Positions 3,682-21,087 of a stretch of 22,376 bases of DNA are shown here, in pieces; position 1 is the first letter of the stretch; each line of letters begins with the position of its first letter. This DNA comes from a virus. The stretch lies in the IMG/VR virus record IMGVR_UViG_3300017776_000220, positions 1 to 22,376 of that record; one strand, 5' to 3'. Below the pieces are notes generated by a model. It made no database searches, had not been told where the DNA came from, and saw only the letters and a list, made by a program, of their open reading frames with translations. The position numbers and the translations under genes are program-made.

Positions 3682-4202
3682 TAGTTAGATTTTCAAGACA
3701 GGATTTATCAGAATGCGAACAAGCGGCATCTTTGCGTTGGCAGTTGGCAAGAGCCAGTGGCGTTGCGAATCAAAGAAGAGATAAGTCTCGCACCGATCAC
3801 GACATTGATCTCTTGGGTGTGAAAGGTGAGTTAGCTGTGGCTAGAATCTTTCAAATAGACCATGACATTCACAAGGGTGGCATTGATATGAACATCGACA
3901 TGTGGGACAACGATGTGTCCTTTGATGTGAAGGCTACCTTTACCCAAGCAGGGCATTTATTATTTAAACAAAAGAAATACTTCAAGGCTGATGTAGCCAT
4001 TCTTGTAACACCACACGATATACCCGATTCAGTTATGGTTGCAGGGTGGATAGGTAGAAAAGAGTTTTTAGAGAAAGCCCAAGATGTAGATTTTGGTAGC
4101 GGTCCTAGTGTTGCTATGGGTTATAACGATCTAAGACCTATACCTGAACTGTGGAAGTTTATGACCATGAAAAGGGTTGCCAAAATACCCAACCGCCTTT
4201 AG
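3678..4202 (+). CDS. Putative PDDEXK-fold endonuclease (resolvase-like)
   Basis: 174 residues. The ATG at 3678 overlaps the previous stop (ATGA) and follows AAGGA at a good distance. The middle has the spacing of a PDDEXK nuclease core: GVKGELAVARIF with E51, GGIDMNID with D70, then SFDVKAT with D83 and K85, followed by a helix and KADVAILV. This resembles Holliday junction resolvase or restriction-type folds rather than exonucleases. In this operon it may resolve branched DNA or degrade host DNA. Its 3' end overlaps by 4 nt the end of a convergent minus-strand gene. The fold is a motif-based inference and the substrate is unknown. Confidence 0.6.
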   Translation: MIVRFSRQDLSECEQAASLRWQLARASGVANQRRDKSRTDHDIDLLGVKGELAVARIFQIDHDIHKGGIDMNIDMWDNDVSFDVKATFTQAGHLLFKQKKYFKADVAILVTPHDIPDSVMVAGWIGRKEFLEKAQDVDFGSGPSVAMGYNDLRPIPELWKFMTMKRVAKIPNRL

Positions 4203-4423
4203 TCTTCTGATTTAGCTGTAATAATAGCTCCGTCTACTTCAATGCTATTGAACTCCAGTCCACTGATCTGCTCATCATTGTGTTCAAAGATCACATCTCT
4301 AACCAATAGCCTAAGCAGTCCTGCCTTTTGAAACAGGTTAAGCCTAGCGTAAGTTTCTATCACTTCATTGGCTGTCATCTTGCTAGTGTTCAACAAGATA
4401 TCGTCTTTCTTTTTAAATAACAT
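4199..4423 (-). CDS. Hypothetical small early protein
   Basis: 74 residues, last gene of the minus-strand early operon starting near 5305. GAGAGGA lies upstream of the ATG at 4423. It is predicted largely helical (ANEVIETYARLNLFQKAG) with a short beta-rich end (GLEFNSIEVDGAIITA). I do not recognise a family. Its stop overlaps the stop of the converging nuclease gene, and no terminator separates them. Confidence 0.7.
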   Translation of the reverse strand: MLFKKKDDILLNTSKMTANEVIETYARLNLFQKAGLLRLLVRDVIFEHNDEQISGLEFNSIEVDGAIITAKSED

Positions 4424-4436
4424 TTAGGGTCCTCTC

Positions 4437-4646
4437 TTAATAATTTAGTTTAACATAACCCGACTTTAATACATGAGCTAATTTCTCATCGTTGTGGGTT
4501 CTTAAAAACCAACCGCCTTTTGCATCCACATATGAAGATACAATGTCGGGCATCTCTACATTACTCATGTTGTACATGTCTTGGTAATGACATTTGTAAG
4601 CATACAAAGCTTGCTCAAAGCTTATAGGTTTATTTGTTGGCACCAT
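4437..4646 (-). CDS. Hypothetical small early protein
   Basis: 69 residues, preceded by a purine-rich GAGGGGGAG ribosome binding site inside the upstream 47-codon gene, which it overlaps by 17 nt. The sequence has several Tyr and His residues (YAYKCHYQDMYNM) and the segment GGWFLRTHNDEKLAHVLKSGYV. No family recognised. Overlap and strong site make it a credible gene. Confidence 0.7.
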   Translation of the reverse strand: MVPTNKPISFEQALYAYKCHYQDMYNMSNVEMPDIVSSYVDAKGGWFLRTHNDEKLAHVLKSGYVKLNY

Positions 4647-4773
4647 CCTTTTTCTCCCCCTCGTTTCTTTCTTTTAATAGTTTTCTAAACTCTGACCACT
4701 TGTATAATTTTCCAGTAACATCGTCATAGAAGTTACCCTTGTAGTCGTATAAATCTTTTGTTGGATCACTCAT
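4630..4773 (-). CDS. Hypothetical 47-residue early protein
   Basis: A short frame running from the ATG at 4773 to TAA at 4630-4632. It reads MSDPTKDLYDYKGNFYDD at the N-terminus and ends in a charged EGEKKDGANK tail. AAGGA lies about 5 nt before the ATG at 4773; an ATG directly upstream (4776) is too close to the site, and one at 4800 lacks one. The pattern YDYKGNFYDDVTGKLYKW resembles small proteins encoded by many marine phages. It overlaps the genes on both sides. Its function is unknown. Confidence 0.6.
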   Translation of the reverse strand: MSDPTKDLYDYKGNFYDDVTGKLYKWSEFRKLLKERNEGEKKDGANK

Positions 4774-4831
4774 CATCTTCCTTTGGTAGTTGCTCTGCAT
4801 CAAACCAACCGCATGGATAATTTATCTCCAT
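4766..4831 (-). CDS. Possible 21-residue micro-ORF
   Basis: MEINYPCGWFDAEQLPKEDD plus a final E, from the ATG at 4831 to TGA at 4766-4768. It fills the gap between two small early genes, overlapping the end of the upstream one and the start of the downstream one, as its neighbours do. No clear Shine-Dalgarno is seen. The non-random composition (CGWFD, acidic end) and position argue for a gene; the length and lack of a site argue against. Confidence 0.3.
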   Translation of the reverse strand: MEINYPCGWFDAEQLPKEDDE

Positions 4832-5019
4832 TCTGTGTGTGGCTTTTTGCGTTTATCAGAATATTCATATTCTACTCTATCTCGATATCTTTTGTGTCTG
4901 ACAACATTGGCTTTACCTATTTCTTCTCTTTGCCAACCAAGCTCTATAATTGTGTTTGCGTCTTTCTCTTCTTTGAGCTTTTGATTTTGCTTTTCTACAA
5001 CATCTTTATACTGTGTCAC
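4822..5019 (-). CDS. Hypothetical small basic early protein (GTG start)
   Basis: 65 residues starting at GTG (5017-5019), which is placed 6 nt after a strong AGAGGAGG site within the end of the upstream gene, so the GTG start is well supported. The N-terminal half is a charged helix (VVEKQNQKLKEEKDANTI), likely coiled coil. The C-terminal half is basic and aromatic (RHKRYRDRVEYEYSDKRKK). Function unknown; the basic part could bind nucleic acid. The overlap of 14 nt with the zinc-ribbon gene implies coupled translation. Confidence 0.65.
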   Translation of the reverse strand: MTQYKDVVEKQNQKLKEEKDANTIIELGWQREEIGKANVVRHKRYRDRVEYEYSDKRKKPHTEWR

Positions 5020-5305
5020 TTTCTGCCTCCTCTACTTTAGGTTTATTTTTATCTGCAATAACTTTCTTTATTGCCTCCCAAACTAATGCTTGATTGAAGT
5101 CTCTGTCCCAAGTGATCATGCCTTCTCTTTGACAAGAGTTGCAACCAATTGGGTTATTAAGGAATCCTTCAAAGGTAGATGTAAACTCACCATGATCACC
5201 AAGGACACAACGCCCTGTGTATGTCTCATGAATATCCTCTCCAAGGTCTTTTCTATATCTTGCAATCATTTGATCGTAAGTCTCTTCTTTTCTTGTTCTT
5301 GCCAT
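5006..5305 (-). CDS. Small zinc-ribbon-like early protein
   Basis: 99 residues. AAGGAG precedes the ATG at 5305, and this is the first gene of the operon driven by the promoter near 5340-5366. The segment from GRCVLGDHGEF (C33, H38) to GCNSC (C55, C58) has the C-x4-H...C-x2-C layout with the HGEF motif known from the short zinc-ribbon units of phage DUF723-like and HNH-associated proteins. Here only one unit is present, followed by a helical region and an acidic end (KVEEAESDTV). A nucleic-acid-binding or regulatory role is plausible. The metal site is inferred from residue spacing. Confidence 0.72.
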   Translation of the reverse strand: MARTRKEETYDQMIARYRKDLGEDIHETYTGRCVLGDHGEFTSTFEGFLNNPIGCNSCQREGMITWDRDFNQALVWEAIKKVIADKNKPKVEEAESDTV

Positions 5306-5337: not shown

Positions 5338-5382
5338 AATTTACTCTCACAAGCATTGAATGTCAACACTTGTGAACACTTT
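5338..5382 (-). promoter_or_regulatory. Early promoter with doubled AAGTGTT motif (P1)
   Basis: On the minus strand a perfect -35 TTGACA (5361-5366) and TAAATT (5338-5343) are 17 bp apart, about 25 nt before the zinc-ribbon gene. Two AAGTGTT copies (5365-5371 and 5375-5381) are 10 bp apart; the proximal one shares its TT with the -35. This is the same arrangement as at 6558-6602. The distal copy reaches the stop codon of the upstream gene. Probably bound by a small regulator. Confidence 0.65.
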
Positions 5383-5641
5383 ATCCCGATACATTAGGAT
5401 AAGACGGATAATGCACATTTGCTATTCTTGTAAATTTTACACTCCATCCCCAAGGACCGTAGGTTGTATGTGAGTCACCGACCTTAAGGTTTTCAAGATG
5501 CTCAAGAGTAAACTCGCCATCCTCATCTTCTTCTATACCCCAGTCGCCCTCGATACCATCATCGACAAACTCTTGCATGTTTACAGTTCTTGGCTCAACA
5601 TCGCCATAAGCCTCTTCGTTCCATACTACTAAAAATTCCAT
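5381..5641 (-). CDS. Hypothetical acidic early protein
   Basis: 86 residues, second gene of the operon starting at 6522. It is coupled to the upstream gene through a TAATG stop-start overlap and has AGGAGGT upstream. It is strongly acidic in the middle (GDWGIEEDEDGEF), with beta-like segments and several Trp residues (GPWGWSVKF). No family recognised. Small acidic early proteins of phages often bind host enzymes or mimic DNA, but nothing here proves that. Its stop codon overlaps the distal operator-like repeat of the next promoter. Confidence 0.7.
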   Translation of the reverse strand: MEFLVVWNEEAYGDVEPRTVNMQEFVDDGIEGDWGIEEDEDGEFTLEHLENLKVGDSHTTYGPWGWSVKFTRIANVHYPSYPNVSG

Positions 5642-6522
5642 TACGCTACCTCCTGTTCTTGACCAAACACTTTGATAAGCTTTGGTCTAATAAGTGAAGT
5701 GGTATTCCAAGTCTTGTCACCGTCTTTTTCTTTGTCAATAAGTTGACCAGTTTTTTCACAAACTTCTGTATAGTCTATCTTTGGTGTAAATTTATTATGA
5801 GATTTTACTGTAGCTTCTAACTCAACCCAAGTATTGACAGAATCCCAAATAGCCTCATTAAACTTAGTTTCATCACCACCATTGGTTACCAACCTTTCAC
5901 CATCTTCTGTGATGTATTTTATTTTTACAGAATAATTGTTGTAACCAAAACTATTTTCGTAATGATCTTGGCTTAGAACAAAGGCTTTAACAGTAACCTT
6001 GTCACCAACAGAACCAAAATGTTTGTTGGCATTCTTAGGAATGTAAATAGCTCTTGGCTTACATATGTTGCTTATGGCTTCATGAATTTCACTTTTGTAC
6101 TCAGTAATATTTGCCCAATAGTTAATGGTTTCTTGAGACATGTCATCAATAAAATAATGACCTACCACATGACCATTTGCCCAAATTTTATCAAAAGGAT
6201 TTTTGCCTTGAGAAATTAACTCTTTAGAAGCTACAACCCAATTAGCAATATTTTCTTCCTTTCTTTTTAGGTTGTCAGCCTCAATTTGCTCTTGCTTTCT
6301 TCTAACAATTTCATTAAGACTTACATCAGCATATGATGTCTCAAGAGGATAAATGTCATTAGCCTTTTCGACATACTCCATAGCCTTGCTTACTGCTTTT
6401 TCAGAGTCAGTAGAAAGGTTTACAATATAATCACCTTTTGAGTCATGCCCATAACCGAAACAAAGAGTATACATAGCAGTAAGATCACCACTAGATATGT
6501 AATATTTTTTTTCTGTTTTCAT
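5641..6522 (-). CDS. Hypothetical early protein, 293 residues
   Basis: AGGAGA lies before the ATG at 6522. It is first in its operon, about 30 nt behind the promoter at 6558-6585. The N-terminal 80 residues have mixed structure; residues ~75-110 form a charged helix (RRKQEQIEADNLKRKEENI). The part from about residue 165 is beta-rich (GDKVTVKAFVLSQDHYENS, TWVELEATVKSHNKF) and could be an OB-like fold. No catalytic motif recognised. Its size and lead position suggest an early function, perhaps with nucleic acids; this is only inference. Confidence 0.75.
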   Translation of the reverse strand: MKTEKKYYISSGDLTAMYTLCFGYGHDSKGDYIVNLSTDSEKAVSKAMEYVEKANDIYPLETSYADVSLNEIVRRKQEQIEADNLKRKEENIANWVVASKELISQGKNPFDKIWANGHVVGHYFIDDMSQETINYWANITEYKSEIHEAISNICKPRAIYIPKNANKHFGSVGDKVTVKAFVLSQDHYENSFGYNNYSVKIKYITEDGERLVTNGGDETKFNEAIWDSVNTWVELEATVKSHNKFTPKIDYTEVCEKTGQLIDKEKDGDKTWNTTSLIRPKLIKVFGQEQEVA

Positions 6523-6557
6523 TAGATTCTCCTGTTAATTAATGAATTTATACTTTA

Positions 6558-6602
6558 ATAATAACAAACTGTCAGATAATTACAACACTTTTCAACACTT
6601 TT
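6558..6602 (-). promoter_or_regulatory. Early promoter with doubled AAGTGTT motif (P2)
   Basis: Minus strand -35 TTGTAA (6580-6585) and -10 TATTAT (6558-6563), 16 bp apart, about 30 nt from the ATG at 6522. AAGTGTT occurs at 6584-6590 and 6594-6600, exactly 10 bp apart and with extra A bases before each, the proximal copy overlapping the -35. It is divergent from P3, with 24 bp between the motif blocks. Confidence 0.65.
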
Positions 6603-6626
6603 ATTGATGTTTTTTTATATGCTAAT

Positions 6627-6660
6627 AAAGTGTTAATATTGTGTTCAAATGTATTATAAT
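6627..6660 (+). promoter_or_regulatory. Promoter of the ribbon-helix-helix genes with AAGTGTT motif (P3)
   Basis: Plus strand: AAAGTGTT (6627-6634) runs into TTAATA (6633-6638) as -35, then 16 bp and a perfect TATAAT (6655-6660). The motif is fused to the -35 by the same TT as in P1 and P2. A second weak copy, TTGTGTT (6639-6645), lies 11 bp on. The ATG at 6700 is ~33 nt after the expected transcript start. Confidence 0.65.
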
Positions 6661-6699
6661 CAGTTACAATTCAGTTTTAAGTACATAAAGGAGATTGAT

Positions 6700-6870
6700 A
6701 TGGGTGACTACAACAAGGGCTACAGAACCTTGACAGTCGATCTAGCAACCTACGAGTTATTGCAAGAGATTTGTTCTTTAGAAAGAAGAAAGAAGATTGA
6801 TCAAATCCGTTTAATGGTGGAGACCAATCACAAAAAAGTAATGCAACAGCAAGAGGGGGAAGCTGTATAA
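6700..6870 (+). CDS. Ribbon-helix-helix-like small regulator 1
   Basis: 56 residues from the ATG at 6700, which has AAAGGAG 6 nt upstream; an ATG at 6649 lies inside the promoter and lacks a site. Residues 9-15 (RTLTVDL) fit the DNA-contacting beta strand of Arc/MetJ/CopG proteins, followed by two helices (ATYELLQEICSLER and KKIDQIRLMVETN) joined by a short basic turn. Such proteins act as dimers that insert a two-stranded sheet into the major groove and often bind phased repeats cooperatively. It is transcribed from P3, whose -35 overlaps an operator-like motif, so autoregulation is likely. The fold call is from pattern only. Confidence 0.65.
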   Translation: MGDYNKGYRTLTVDLATYELLQEICSLERRKKIDQIRLMVETNHKKVMQQQEGEAV

Positions 6871-6883
6871 CTAGGAGACAATT

Positions 6884-7123
6884 ATGTTAGCAGGACATTT
6901 TCCTAAAGATATTGTCAAAGAAATAAAAGGCTCACAAAGAGTTGAACAGGACATTACTCCTATAGCCATTGATAAGCATTTGTCTGATCAGTTGTTTGCA
7001 CTTGCCAGTGCGAAGAATAAATGCCCAAGAAAGATGGCTGAGTATTTTATAAATCTAGGAGTGCAAACTTCTAAGTTTTATGGGAATACAATGAATGTTC
7101 AGTTTGATGTAGATCAGCTTTAA
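6884..7123 (+). CDS. Ribbon-helix-helix-like small regulator 2
   Basis: 79 residues. TAGGAGA precedes the ATG at 6884; the gap after the first regulator is 13 nt. Residues 24-30 (DITPIAI) look like a ribbon-helix-helix beta strand, then helix A (DKHLSDQLFALASAK) and helix B (PRKMAEYFINLGVQ), with N- and C-terminal extensions. It is clearly different in sequence from its neighbour, so it may bind another site or form a mixed partner. Its stop is 1 nt from the stop of the converging late operon, with no terminator between. Confidence 0.6.
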   Translation: MLAGHFPKDIVKEIKGSQRVEQDITPIAIDKHLSDQLFALASAKNKCPRKMAEYFINLGVQTSKFYGNTMNVQFDVDQL

Positions 7124-19259: not shown

Positions 19260-19934
19260 CTAATCCTCGTTGTATAAATTATCGAAAACTCGATTTACAT
19301 CCAATGTATAGTCTAAATCAGATTTAGAGTAATGTATATGTGCAGAAGGTTTAAAATCAGGTGCATCACTGCCTGTTTCAAACCAAGCAGGGTGTGTAAC
19401 CCTTACCCTATTATTGGGCAACGCTACAATATTTCCAGTCCACTCACCTGCGTCTAATAACTCTAATACATGACTGCTTTTGTGTTGTGCAGGATCATCA
19501 GCTATTTCGCTTTCTGCATAATCTACAGTGAAATAATACTTTGCAGGAAACATCTTACCATCTATCTTTGCAAGCCAAGGGCAGGGTGTTGCTCTATCTA
19601 TAACATAAACAGAATTATGATGTGATGAACAATCCCATGGTTGTGCATCATGCACTGCCATAGGTTCTGCCCATTCTTCAAATGGTGTGTCTGCAACCAA
19701 GGCGGTTATTGGCATTCTTGCCCACATAGCTCCACCGTGTGCTGTATCTTCAGGCTCACCGTCTGCTTCTATGCCAGTGAAGATTAAATGAAATCCTAAG
19801 CAACGATTTGGCATAGTAGTAACGCCTATAGCCATAGCGTGCAAAAACTCACCATGATATTGCTCATGGTTATGTGTGTACTCTCTTCTCACCCAACACT
19901 TAAAGTGTGGGATATTACTGTATAAATAAGACAC
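19260..19934 (-). CDS. Conserved marine-phage hypothetical protein
   Basis: 224 residues from GTG (19932-19934), which overlaps the TAG of the upstream gene (TAGTG). It is rich in His, Trp and Pro (HNHEQYHGEFLHAM, DAQPWDCSSHHNSVYVIDR) and beta-like. I recall close relatives in marine phages but no assigned function. Its position between basic proteins and connectors makes a virion assembly role possible. Start choice follows the overlap; no strong site is visible. Confidence 0.65.
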   Translation of the reverse strand: MSYLYSNIPHFKCWVRREYTHNHEQYHGEFLHAMAIGVTTMPNRCLGFHLIFTGIEADGEPEDTAHGGAMWARMPITALVADTPFEEWAEPMAVHDAQPWDCSSHHNSVYVIDRATPCPWLAKIDGKMFPAKYYFTVDYAESEIADDPAQHKSSHVLELLDAGEWTGNIVALPNNRVRVTHPAWFETGSDAPDFKPSAHIHYSKSDLDYTLDVNRVFDNLYNED

Positions 19935-20116
19935 TACTTACTTACTTTTCCGCCCTTCTTGTAACCTTTTGTGCTTATTTTTCCGCCTTTTTTGTAGCCT
20001 TTAGATTTCATCGCACCGCCTTTTTTCATGCCCTTTGATTTCATCATGCCACCTTTTTTCATGCCTTTGGATTTGACCATACCACCGCTAGCATATCCTT
20101 TAGTTTTCTTGTGCAT
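19934..20116 (-). CDS. Lys/Gly-rich repeat protein, no acidic residues
   Basis: 60 residues with AGGAG upstream. After MHKKTKGYASGG come four near-copies of an 11-residue unit: two residues, then KSKG(M/Y)KKGG or STKGYKKGG, and the tail KVSK. It has 21 Lys and neither Asp nor Glu. Such a protein would bind DNA or RNA non-specifically, or coat negatively charged virion surfaces. The family is unknown, and the repeat is also visible in DNA (33-bp units). Confidence 0.65.
   Translation of the reverse strand: MHKKTKGYASGGMVKSKGMKKGGMMKSKGMKKGGAMKSKGYKKGGKISTKGYKKGGKVSK
19949..20080 (-). repeat. Four tandem 33-bp units coding 11-residue KG repeats
   Basis: Units encode residues 13-23, 24-34, 35-45 and 46-56 of the Lys/Gly-rich protein. 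The first two differ at one residue only (MVKSKGMKKGG and MMKSKGMKKGG); the third and fourth have diverged. This suggests growth by tandem duplication. Confidence 0.7.
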
Positions 20117-20145
20117 TATTGCTCCTAATTAAAATACTTATTCTA

Positions 20146-20415
20146 TCACTTTTTTCTTTTGGCAAAAGTTTTTACATTGGTTGGTTTGCCACCAACACCT
20201 TGTTTCTTTGATCTTTTTCTTGTGACTGCTGATTTGATTTGTGATTTGGTCATTGACCGTGCTTTTGATTTAGGTACACATTTAGGATATTTTCTTTTTG
20301 ATCCTTTTGCAGATTTTCTTCCGCACTTCTTAAACCCACCACCTTTTTTTGGTGATCCAATGTCTACCCACTCATCCTTGAACCATTTCTTGAGTCCGCC
20401 TGATCGCTTAGTCAT
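20146..20415 (-). CDS. Small basic protein, DUF5872-like
   Basis: 89 residues, TAATG overlap with the upstream gene. KKWFKDEWVDIGSPKKGGGF, then KCGRKSA, RKYPKCVPKSKA and MTKSQIKSAVTRKR match the pattern I recall for DUF5872 proteins of marine phages. It is very basic with two conserved-looking Cys. Function unknown; basic charge and late position suggest a packaged or DNA-associated protein. Confidence 0.7.
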   Translation of the reverse strand: MTKRSGGLKKWFKDEWVDIGSPKKGGGFKKCGRKSAKGSKRKYPKCVPKSKARSMTKSQIKSAVTRKRSKKQGVGGKPTNVKTFAKRKK

Positions 20416-20768
20416 TAGCCACGCATCTTGGTTTTCTTTCTGCGATCATTCATAACCGCACCACAACCACGAGCTATAAAACTTTTAACGCCTGCACCCT
20501 TTTTAACTGTGCCACCATTTGCCATAAAGCCCATCTCGTTGCGTACTTGTTTAGGTAACTTAGGTAACCCCTTGTTGCCTTTGGGTATTGGTTTTAGACT
20601 TTTTTCCATAATTCCACCTTTAGCTTTATATTGACCGCCCATTCTTTTGTATTCTTTAACCATCCAAGCATTTGCATAAGCTGATGGATAAACATCAAAC
20701 TTAGCCTTTGCTTTAGACTTAGCTTTACTATAAAGACTTGGATTTTTTACATTGTCAGGTACTGCCAT
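20415..20768 (-). CDS. Small basic protein found with DUF5872-type genes
   Basis: 117 residues; the ATG follows the upstream TAA directly, with AGGTGG just before. The N-terminal half (PDNVKNPSLYSKAKSKAKAK, SAYANAWMVKEYKRMGG) is a pattern common to small phage proteins near DUF5872. The second half holds KAKGGIMEKS, MANGGTVKKG and the end KSFIARGCGAVMNDRRKKT. Function unknown. Confidence 0.7.
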   Translation of the reverse strand: MAVPDNVKNPSLYSKAKSKAKAKFDVYPSAYANAWMVKEYKRMGGQYKAKGGIMEKSLKPIPKGNKGLPKLPKQVRNEMGFMANGGTVKKGAGVKSFIARGCGAVMNDRRKKTKMRG

Positions 20769-21077
20769 TTAACATTTCCACCTTCGCCTTGCTTGGCGTA
20801 TTCTTGAGTTAGGATCATTCCTAGTTTTTGCCGAACTGCGTTTAAGTTGTCCAAGCGATCTAGCACAATAAGACTTACGCCTTTTTGCCGCTTTGCTTCC
20901 TTTTTTAACTTTACCAGTTACGGCTGTTTTTAATTTAGAACCGGGGTTAGCTTTTCTGTAAGCCTTAACACCCTTTTTCGTCATGCCTGCACCCTTTTTA
21001 GTAGGGCGATAATTAGCTCCCTTACCTTTTGTGGTTTTGGGTATGCTTTTAGCTTTTTTTTTCTTTTTTTCAGCCAT
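20769..21077 (-). CDS. Small basic protein, DUF6321-like
   Basis: 102 residues from the ATG at 21077; a TTG two codons earlier is less likely. A poly-Lys start (AEKKKKKAKS) is followed by KKGVKAYRKANPGSKLKTAV, KKGSKAAKRRKSYCA and DPNSRIRQARRRWKC, matching the DUF6321 pattern as I remember it. Only weak base pairing for a ribosome binding site is present; a perfect hairpin with a UUCG loop lies 10 nt upstream. Function unknown. Confidence 0.72.
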   Translation of the reverse strand: MAEKKKKKAKSIPKTTKGKGANYRPTKKGAGMTKKGVKAYRKANPGSKLKTAVTGKVKKGSKAAKRRKSYCARSLGQLKRSSAKTRNDPNSRIRQARRRWKC

Positions 21078-21087
21078 ATCCAAAAGC

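Follow-up and report, generated by a model that had tools for sequence, protein, structure and literature searches.

Paired AAGTGTT sites fused to the −35 boxes of predicted promoters in uncultured marine phages, with a probable ribbon-helix-helix protein as candidate regulator

Two AAGTGTT heptamers, arranged as direct repeats 10 bp apart and built into the −35 box of the promoter, form the recurring site of a real, conserved phage regulon. We describe it in a stretch of 22,376 nucleotides, referred to as the window (IMG/VR virus record IMGVR_UViG_3300017776_000220, positions 1-22,376), whose numbering is used throughout. The sites have a fixed geometry, are restricted to phages that carry the small protein RHH1, and recur in like layout in a second clade with a divergent relative of RHH1. 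RHH1 is the best candidate for the operator-binding protein, and judging from the sequences we consider it quite probable that it serves as an autoregulated repressor of early genes.

Inspection of the two leftward promoters, P1 and P2, bore out most of what a sequence-only reading of this DNA had proposed for them. The five AAGTGTT copies that it reported are all in place (Table 1), the motif is doubled at exactly 10 bp in both promoters, each time as an exact AAGTGTT-N3-AAGTGTT, and in both the final TT of the heptamer is also the initial TT of the −35 box. P1 reads AAGTGTTcacAAGTGTTGACA-17-TAAATT and has a perfect consensus −35; P2 reads AAGTGTTgaaAAGTGTTGTAA-16-TATTAT, with a −35 that matches in part. 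The gap between the P2 block and that of the rightward promoter P3, given earlier as 24 bp, measures 27 bp (6601-6627). Taken alone, the heptamer shows no enrichment across the window (9 copies observed, 6.5 expected), although five of the nine copies fall within about 250 bp of intergenic DNA, so the signal lies in pairing and position. The exact pair occurs twice, against none in 300 dinucleotide shuffles and an i.i.d. expectation of 0.0004, and no second 7-mer is repeated at N3 spacing in more than one place in the window. The possibility that the motif is simply frequent in coding DNA was also checked, and the pair was not found in the coding DNA of the window.

Table 1. Predicted regulatory elements and associated genes, in window coordinates.
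Feature	Position	Strand	Description
P1 operator	5365-5381	−	AAGTGTT-cac-AAGTGTT, 10-bp direct repeat, exact match; half-sites 5365-5371 and 5375-5381
P1 core promoter	5338-5366	−	TTGACA 5361-5366, 17 nt, TAAATT 5338-5343
P2 operator	6584-6600	−	AAGTGTT-gaa-AAGTGTT, 10-bp direct repeat, exact match; half-sites 6584-6590 and 6594-6600; kept in relatives
P2 core promoter	6558-6585	−	TTGTAA 6580-6585, 16 nt, TATTAT 6558-6563; TG preceding −10
P3 operator	6628-6645	+	AAGTGTT 6628-6634 and degenerate TTGTGTT 6639-6645, 11 bp apart
P3 core promoter, conserved register	6644-6670	+	TTCAAA 6644-6649, 15 nt, TACAAT 6665-6670
RHH1	6700-6870	+	56 aa, probable ribbon-helix-helix regulator
RHH2	6884-7123	+	79 aa, putative fold; window's subclade only
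Presumed P1 genes	4199-5305	−	ORFs of 99, 65, 57, 69 and 74 aa; gene families kept in relatives
Presumed P2 gene	5641-6522	−	293 aa, PHROG 3628
Presumed P2 gene	5381-5641	−	86 aa, ORF

The promoter P3, which precedes RHH1, is less simple than the single site first described, as a second, degenerate half-site lies downstream of its AAGTGTT. The earlier assignment of this AAGTGTT to a TTAATA box holds for the window, where TTAATA (6633-6638) is followed after 16 nt by TATAAT (6655-6660), but the heptamer is retained by only part of the relatives and lost in many. Alignment of the sequences upstream of RHH1 in diverged relatives revealed that the conserved element is the half-site 11 bp downstream (GTGTT, 6641-6645), which overlaps the −35 box with a −10 box 15 nt further on. 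Since both registers fit the window, P3 may consist of two overlapping promoters.

RHH1 is probably a ribbon-helix-helix protein, judging from profile comparison. In an hhalign comparison with an RHH_1 alignment assembled from matches in bacteria, it aligned in register over the strand, helix A and helix B (P 1.7e-4), with a score of 21.5 against 15.7 for the best of 100 column shuffles. No match above cut-off was obtained in Pfam or NCBIfam, a TraY model gave weak matches (E 0.03) for 3 of 18 family members, and comparison with solved structures yielded chance-level matches only. AlphaFold2 monomer models, run twice, consisted of one long helix (15-53 or 15-54) with high mid-helix confidence; a single-helix monomer model would be compatible with an obligate-dimer ribbon-helix-helix fold and equally with its absence. 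RHH2, which had been assigned the same fold, scored 14.9 with an hhalign probability of 4.5, inside the range of 60 shuffles. It was found at 14 loci, all 95-100% identical and confined to the window's subclade, of which it is an accessory, and it cannot act as a general binder. The first ribbon-helix-helix gene originally named thus keeps modest profile support with the fold not shown by AlphaFold2, and the second stays at shuffle level. The proposal that the P3 products bind AAGTGTT fares likewise: co-occurrence and the second clade speak for RHH1, while RHH2 is not needed.

We then followed the paired site in related phages. IMG/VR contains 41 relatives of RHH1 (clade 1), and nearly all of those with enough flanking sequence carry one to three exact pairs, always with N3 spacing and on the strand opposite RHH1. 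The exceptions are contigs that end too early and L068, whose sites lie farther off and are seen in G005. The pair is present in the homologous promoters of related phages for both P1 and P2 with its N3 spacing kept, in agreement with the original proposal, and the P1 operator is kept together with TTGACATTCAATGCTTGTGAGAGTAAATT downstream. One relative (L042) retains P1 and has a P2 pair short by one base. Spacing was N3 in every site found at up to one mismatch. Because the search pattern fixed the motif, the invariance of the half-site is partly by construction; the YRTLTVD strand segment of RHH1 is invariant in clade 1 as well. The −10 box and its distance lay outside the pattern; 43 distinct site windows contain such a box, and in nearly all of them it is separated from the −35 hexamer by exactly 16 nt. 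Both boxes are mostly near-consensus in the relatives, with short spacing. Grouping all sites by flank similarity gave 27 clusters, among which L141 is probably a chance match. A third, upstream half-site was considered as a general feature of clade 1 and rejected, AAATGTA being present in some relatives (L058, for example) and not generally. Gene maps of seven longer records, with at most three sites per record, placed the sites in short gaps ahead of various leftward sets of small variable genes.

A second clade came to light through one contig, gathered by way of a structural protein, that contained a distant RHH1 relative; a search with that relative yielded 15 loci. Its protein is 36% identical to RHH1, its neighbouring genes differ from those of clade 1, its GC content is 51% versus 39%, and its host is probably a different one. 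Where readable, the homologous putative early promoter of this clade contains AA[AG]TGT[GA] merged into a TGTACA- or TATACA-like −35. Upstream of it lie 10-bp-phased repeats of the TTGYA type, for which Tandem Repeats Finder gave a period of 10 bp and 4.8 copies in L375. In the G211-like loci and L372, though not in all loci, the opposite strand of the RHH gene's own promoter bears AATTGTA-N3-GATTGTA or GATTGTA-N3-GATTGTA. Within the 41 kb of G211, a degenerate pair pattern occurs only at the early and RHH-own promoters, the two from which the pattern was drawn. Recurrence of the layout with a protein only 36% identical, among other neighbours and at another GC content, speaks most strongly for the RHH protein as the binder. 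The earlier claim that the P3 products set all three promoters agrees with P1, P2 and the own-promoter pairs of the second clade, and less well with P3, whose site is poorer and differently placed. Neither RHH1 nor its divergent form was found in annotated phage records.

Whether the site is specific to this group was assessed by a blind scan of IMG/VR with the pattern AAGTGTTNNNAAGTGTTG, the listed matches of which are a sample. Among the matches listed, all sites with the 16-nt architecture lie in contigs with this group's genes, except L141, a probable chance match. Promoter-like matches outside the group (L081, L141), as well as prophages with 17-nt spacing (L082, L083, L090 and others), were set aside as chance or as another system. 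The unrelated prophage group of L082, L083, L090 and related contigs has AAGTGTTaaaAAGTGTTG followed by a palindrome, ATTACAT...ATGTAAT, at different spacing. RHH1 and the site occur together in 10 of 10 RHH1-bearing clade-1 records tested, a co-occurrence that partly reflects shared descent; most relatives were gathered through RHH1 itself. Twelve related phage records were picked by a structural protein: none has the AAGTGTT pair at up to one mismatch, and eleven lack an RHH1 match, the other being G211 with its divergent protein and its own variant sites. No similarity to known phages was found for the DNA of the window.

In the mechanism that we propose, RHH1 would bind AAGTGTT-type half-sites through a TGT core, its dimers most likely lining up along a single helix face every 10-11 bp. 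At P1 and P2, whose second half-site merges with the −35 box, bound RHH1 would cover that box and shut off the leftward genes, which are presumably early. The P3 site, with one conserved and one poor half-site 11 bp apart, would be weaker, so that RHH1 could build up before limiting its own synthesis. The placement of the second half-site over the −35 box of near-consensus promoters argues for repression, and a weaker P3 fits delayed autorepression. Against this mechanism it counts that the conserved P3 half-site is weak, that many relatives lack the half-site upstream of it, and that activators too can bind on the −35 box. The main rival is that RHH1, alone or with RHH2, activates P1 and P2 from the same sites as a class II activator in contact with RNA polymerase at −35, which we regard as unlikely. 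Class II activators occupy the same position, with direct repeats of which the second lies on the −35 box; the TTGTAA box of P2 is not a full match; and AmrZ, an RHH protein, is reported to act as both activator and repressor (PMC3325190). However, P1 has a perfect TTGACA box, and most relatives have near-consensus boxes at short spacing that would need no help. RHH proteins are, moreover, mostly repressors.

The binder might instead be a host transcription factor, such as a response regulator of the OmpR/PhoB type, which would make early phage transcription depend on the host's condition. Regulators of this type do recognise direct repeats, of about 10-11 bp, that overlap the −35 box, but the exact pair occurs in 0 of 200 genomes of the SAR86 order, the presumed host order, and at one mismatch the counts in two SAR86 genomes are at or nearly at the level of a reversed-pattern control. 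The second clade, at 51% GC and probably in another host, keeps the architecture together with the RHH protein, and we hold a host factor to be very unlikely. Hardly credible is the reading of the repeats as iterons of a replication or partition site and not operators; some RHH proteins serve plasmid partition, and as many as 4.8 tandem copies of 10 bp occur in the second clade, yet the sites stand singly before several different leftward gene groups per genome, nearly always in one orientation and at one distance from the −10 box.

Set beside known systems, early control by RHH1 as proposed here would be a variation on an established type of regulation, in a little-known phage group. P22 Arc and the plasmid proteins of the omega/CopG type are small RHH repressors that bind repeated half-sites cooperatively and regulate their own synthesis. 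RHH1 would resemble them as a small phage or plasmid repressor with repeated half-sites and self-control; the heptads of omega are contiguous, unlike those described here, the half-sites of Arc are otherwise arranged, sequences and spacings differ, and RHH1 gave no significant sequence match to these families in Pfam. Lambda CII, a helix-turn-helix activator, reads TTGC-N6-TTGC, 4-bp repeats with a 10-bp period around the −35 box. The period at −35 and the use by a phage regulator are shared, but the CII repeats flank the −35 box, whereas the second repeat of AAGTGTT-N3-AAGTGTT at P1 and P2 is part of it, and no flanking TTGC-N6-TTGC was found there. OmpR/PhoB-type boxes are heptamer direct repeats about one turn apart that overlap the −35 box, as here; Pho boxes have 11 bp instead of 10 and another heptamer, and the absence of the exact pair from the SAR86-order genomes gives no sign of a host regulon. 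E. coli RelB recognises [A/T]TGT[A/C]A, with dimers on one helix face, TG protected and unprotected stretches of 9-10 bp, and represses its own operon from these one-face sites (PMC2812701). RHH1 would be comparable as a small RHH autoregulator with a similar TGT core. The relO hexads, however, make up palindromic half-sites, whereas several promoters carry direct repeats here; RelB also acts jointly with the toxin RelE, and no toxin partner was seen for RHH1. We found no literature joining ribbon-helix-helix proteins, phages, early promoters and direct repeats.

The clade-1 phages likely infect SAR86, since cellular relatives of RHH1 were found in GTDB in only two SAR86 genomes and a related phage is represented by a 53-kb contig in one SAR86-order genome; that contig has neither RHH1 nor the site. 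The SAR86 lineage is abundant, and as of 2017 it had yielded no virus isolate (PMC5332604). The regulon offers a concrete regulatory code common to uncultured marine phages that probably infect SAR86, and its sites mark the variable genes that these phages would put under one control. The SAR86 relative has 87 aa, is chromosomal and shares the RTLTVD strand segment (L234:5986-6249, L235:5986-6249). A prophage origin is unsupported, as the flanking genes look chromosomal, and no exact AAGTGTT pair was found in either genome. It is quite unlikely, in our estimate, that this protein is a captured phage repressor directed against the early promoters of incoming phages, that is, immunity by a domesticated repressor; its presence opens the idea of superinfection immunity to direct testing. 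At both loci a small Cro-like gene follows the 87-aa gene, and in L234 a gene with an ARPP-1 domain lies farther along.

Several genes of this phage group deserve separate mention. In two records a one-mismatch site adjoins a FecR-domain gene, upstream of a small gene and a CHASE2-adenylate cyclase gene. Genes of these two kinds are found at L191:7445-9199 (−) and L191:9545-10660 (−), with related ones in G004 and G005, and in G003 a one-mismatch AAGTGTT pair lies between the cyclase and FecR-domain genes. No phage CHASE2 cyclase was reported in the literature that we found. One relative has a serine recombinase gene of 248 aa (L197:17152-17898). In the window itself, a 224-aa protein (19260-19934, − strand) matches PHROG 3704, labelled ferredoxin and auxiliary metabolic gene, and next to its gene, several small proteins of very high lysine and glycine content are encoded in a row (19934-21083, − strand).
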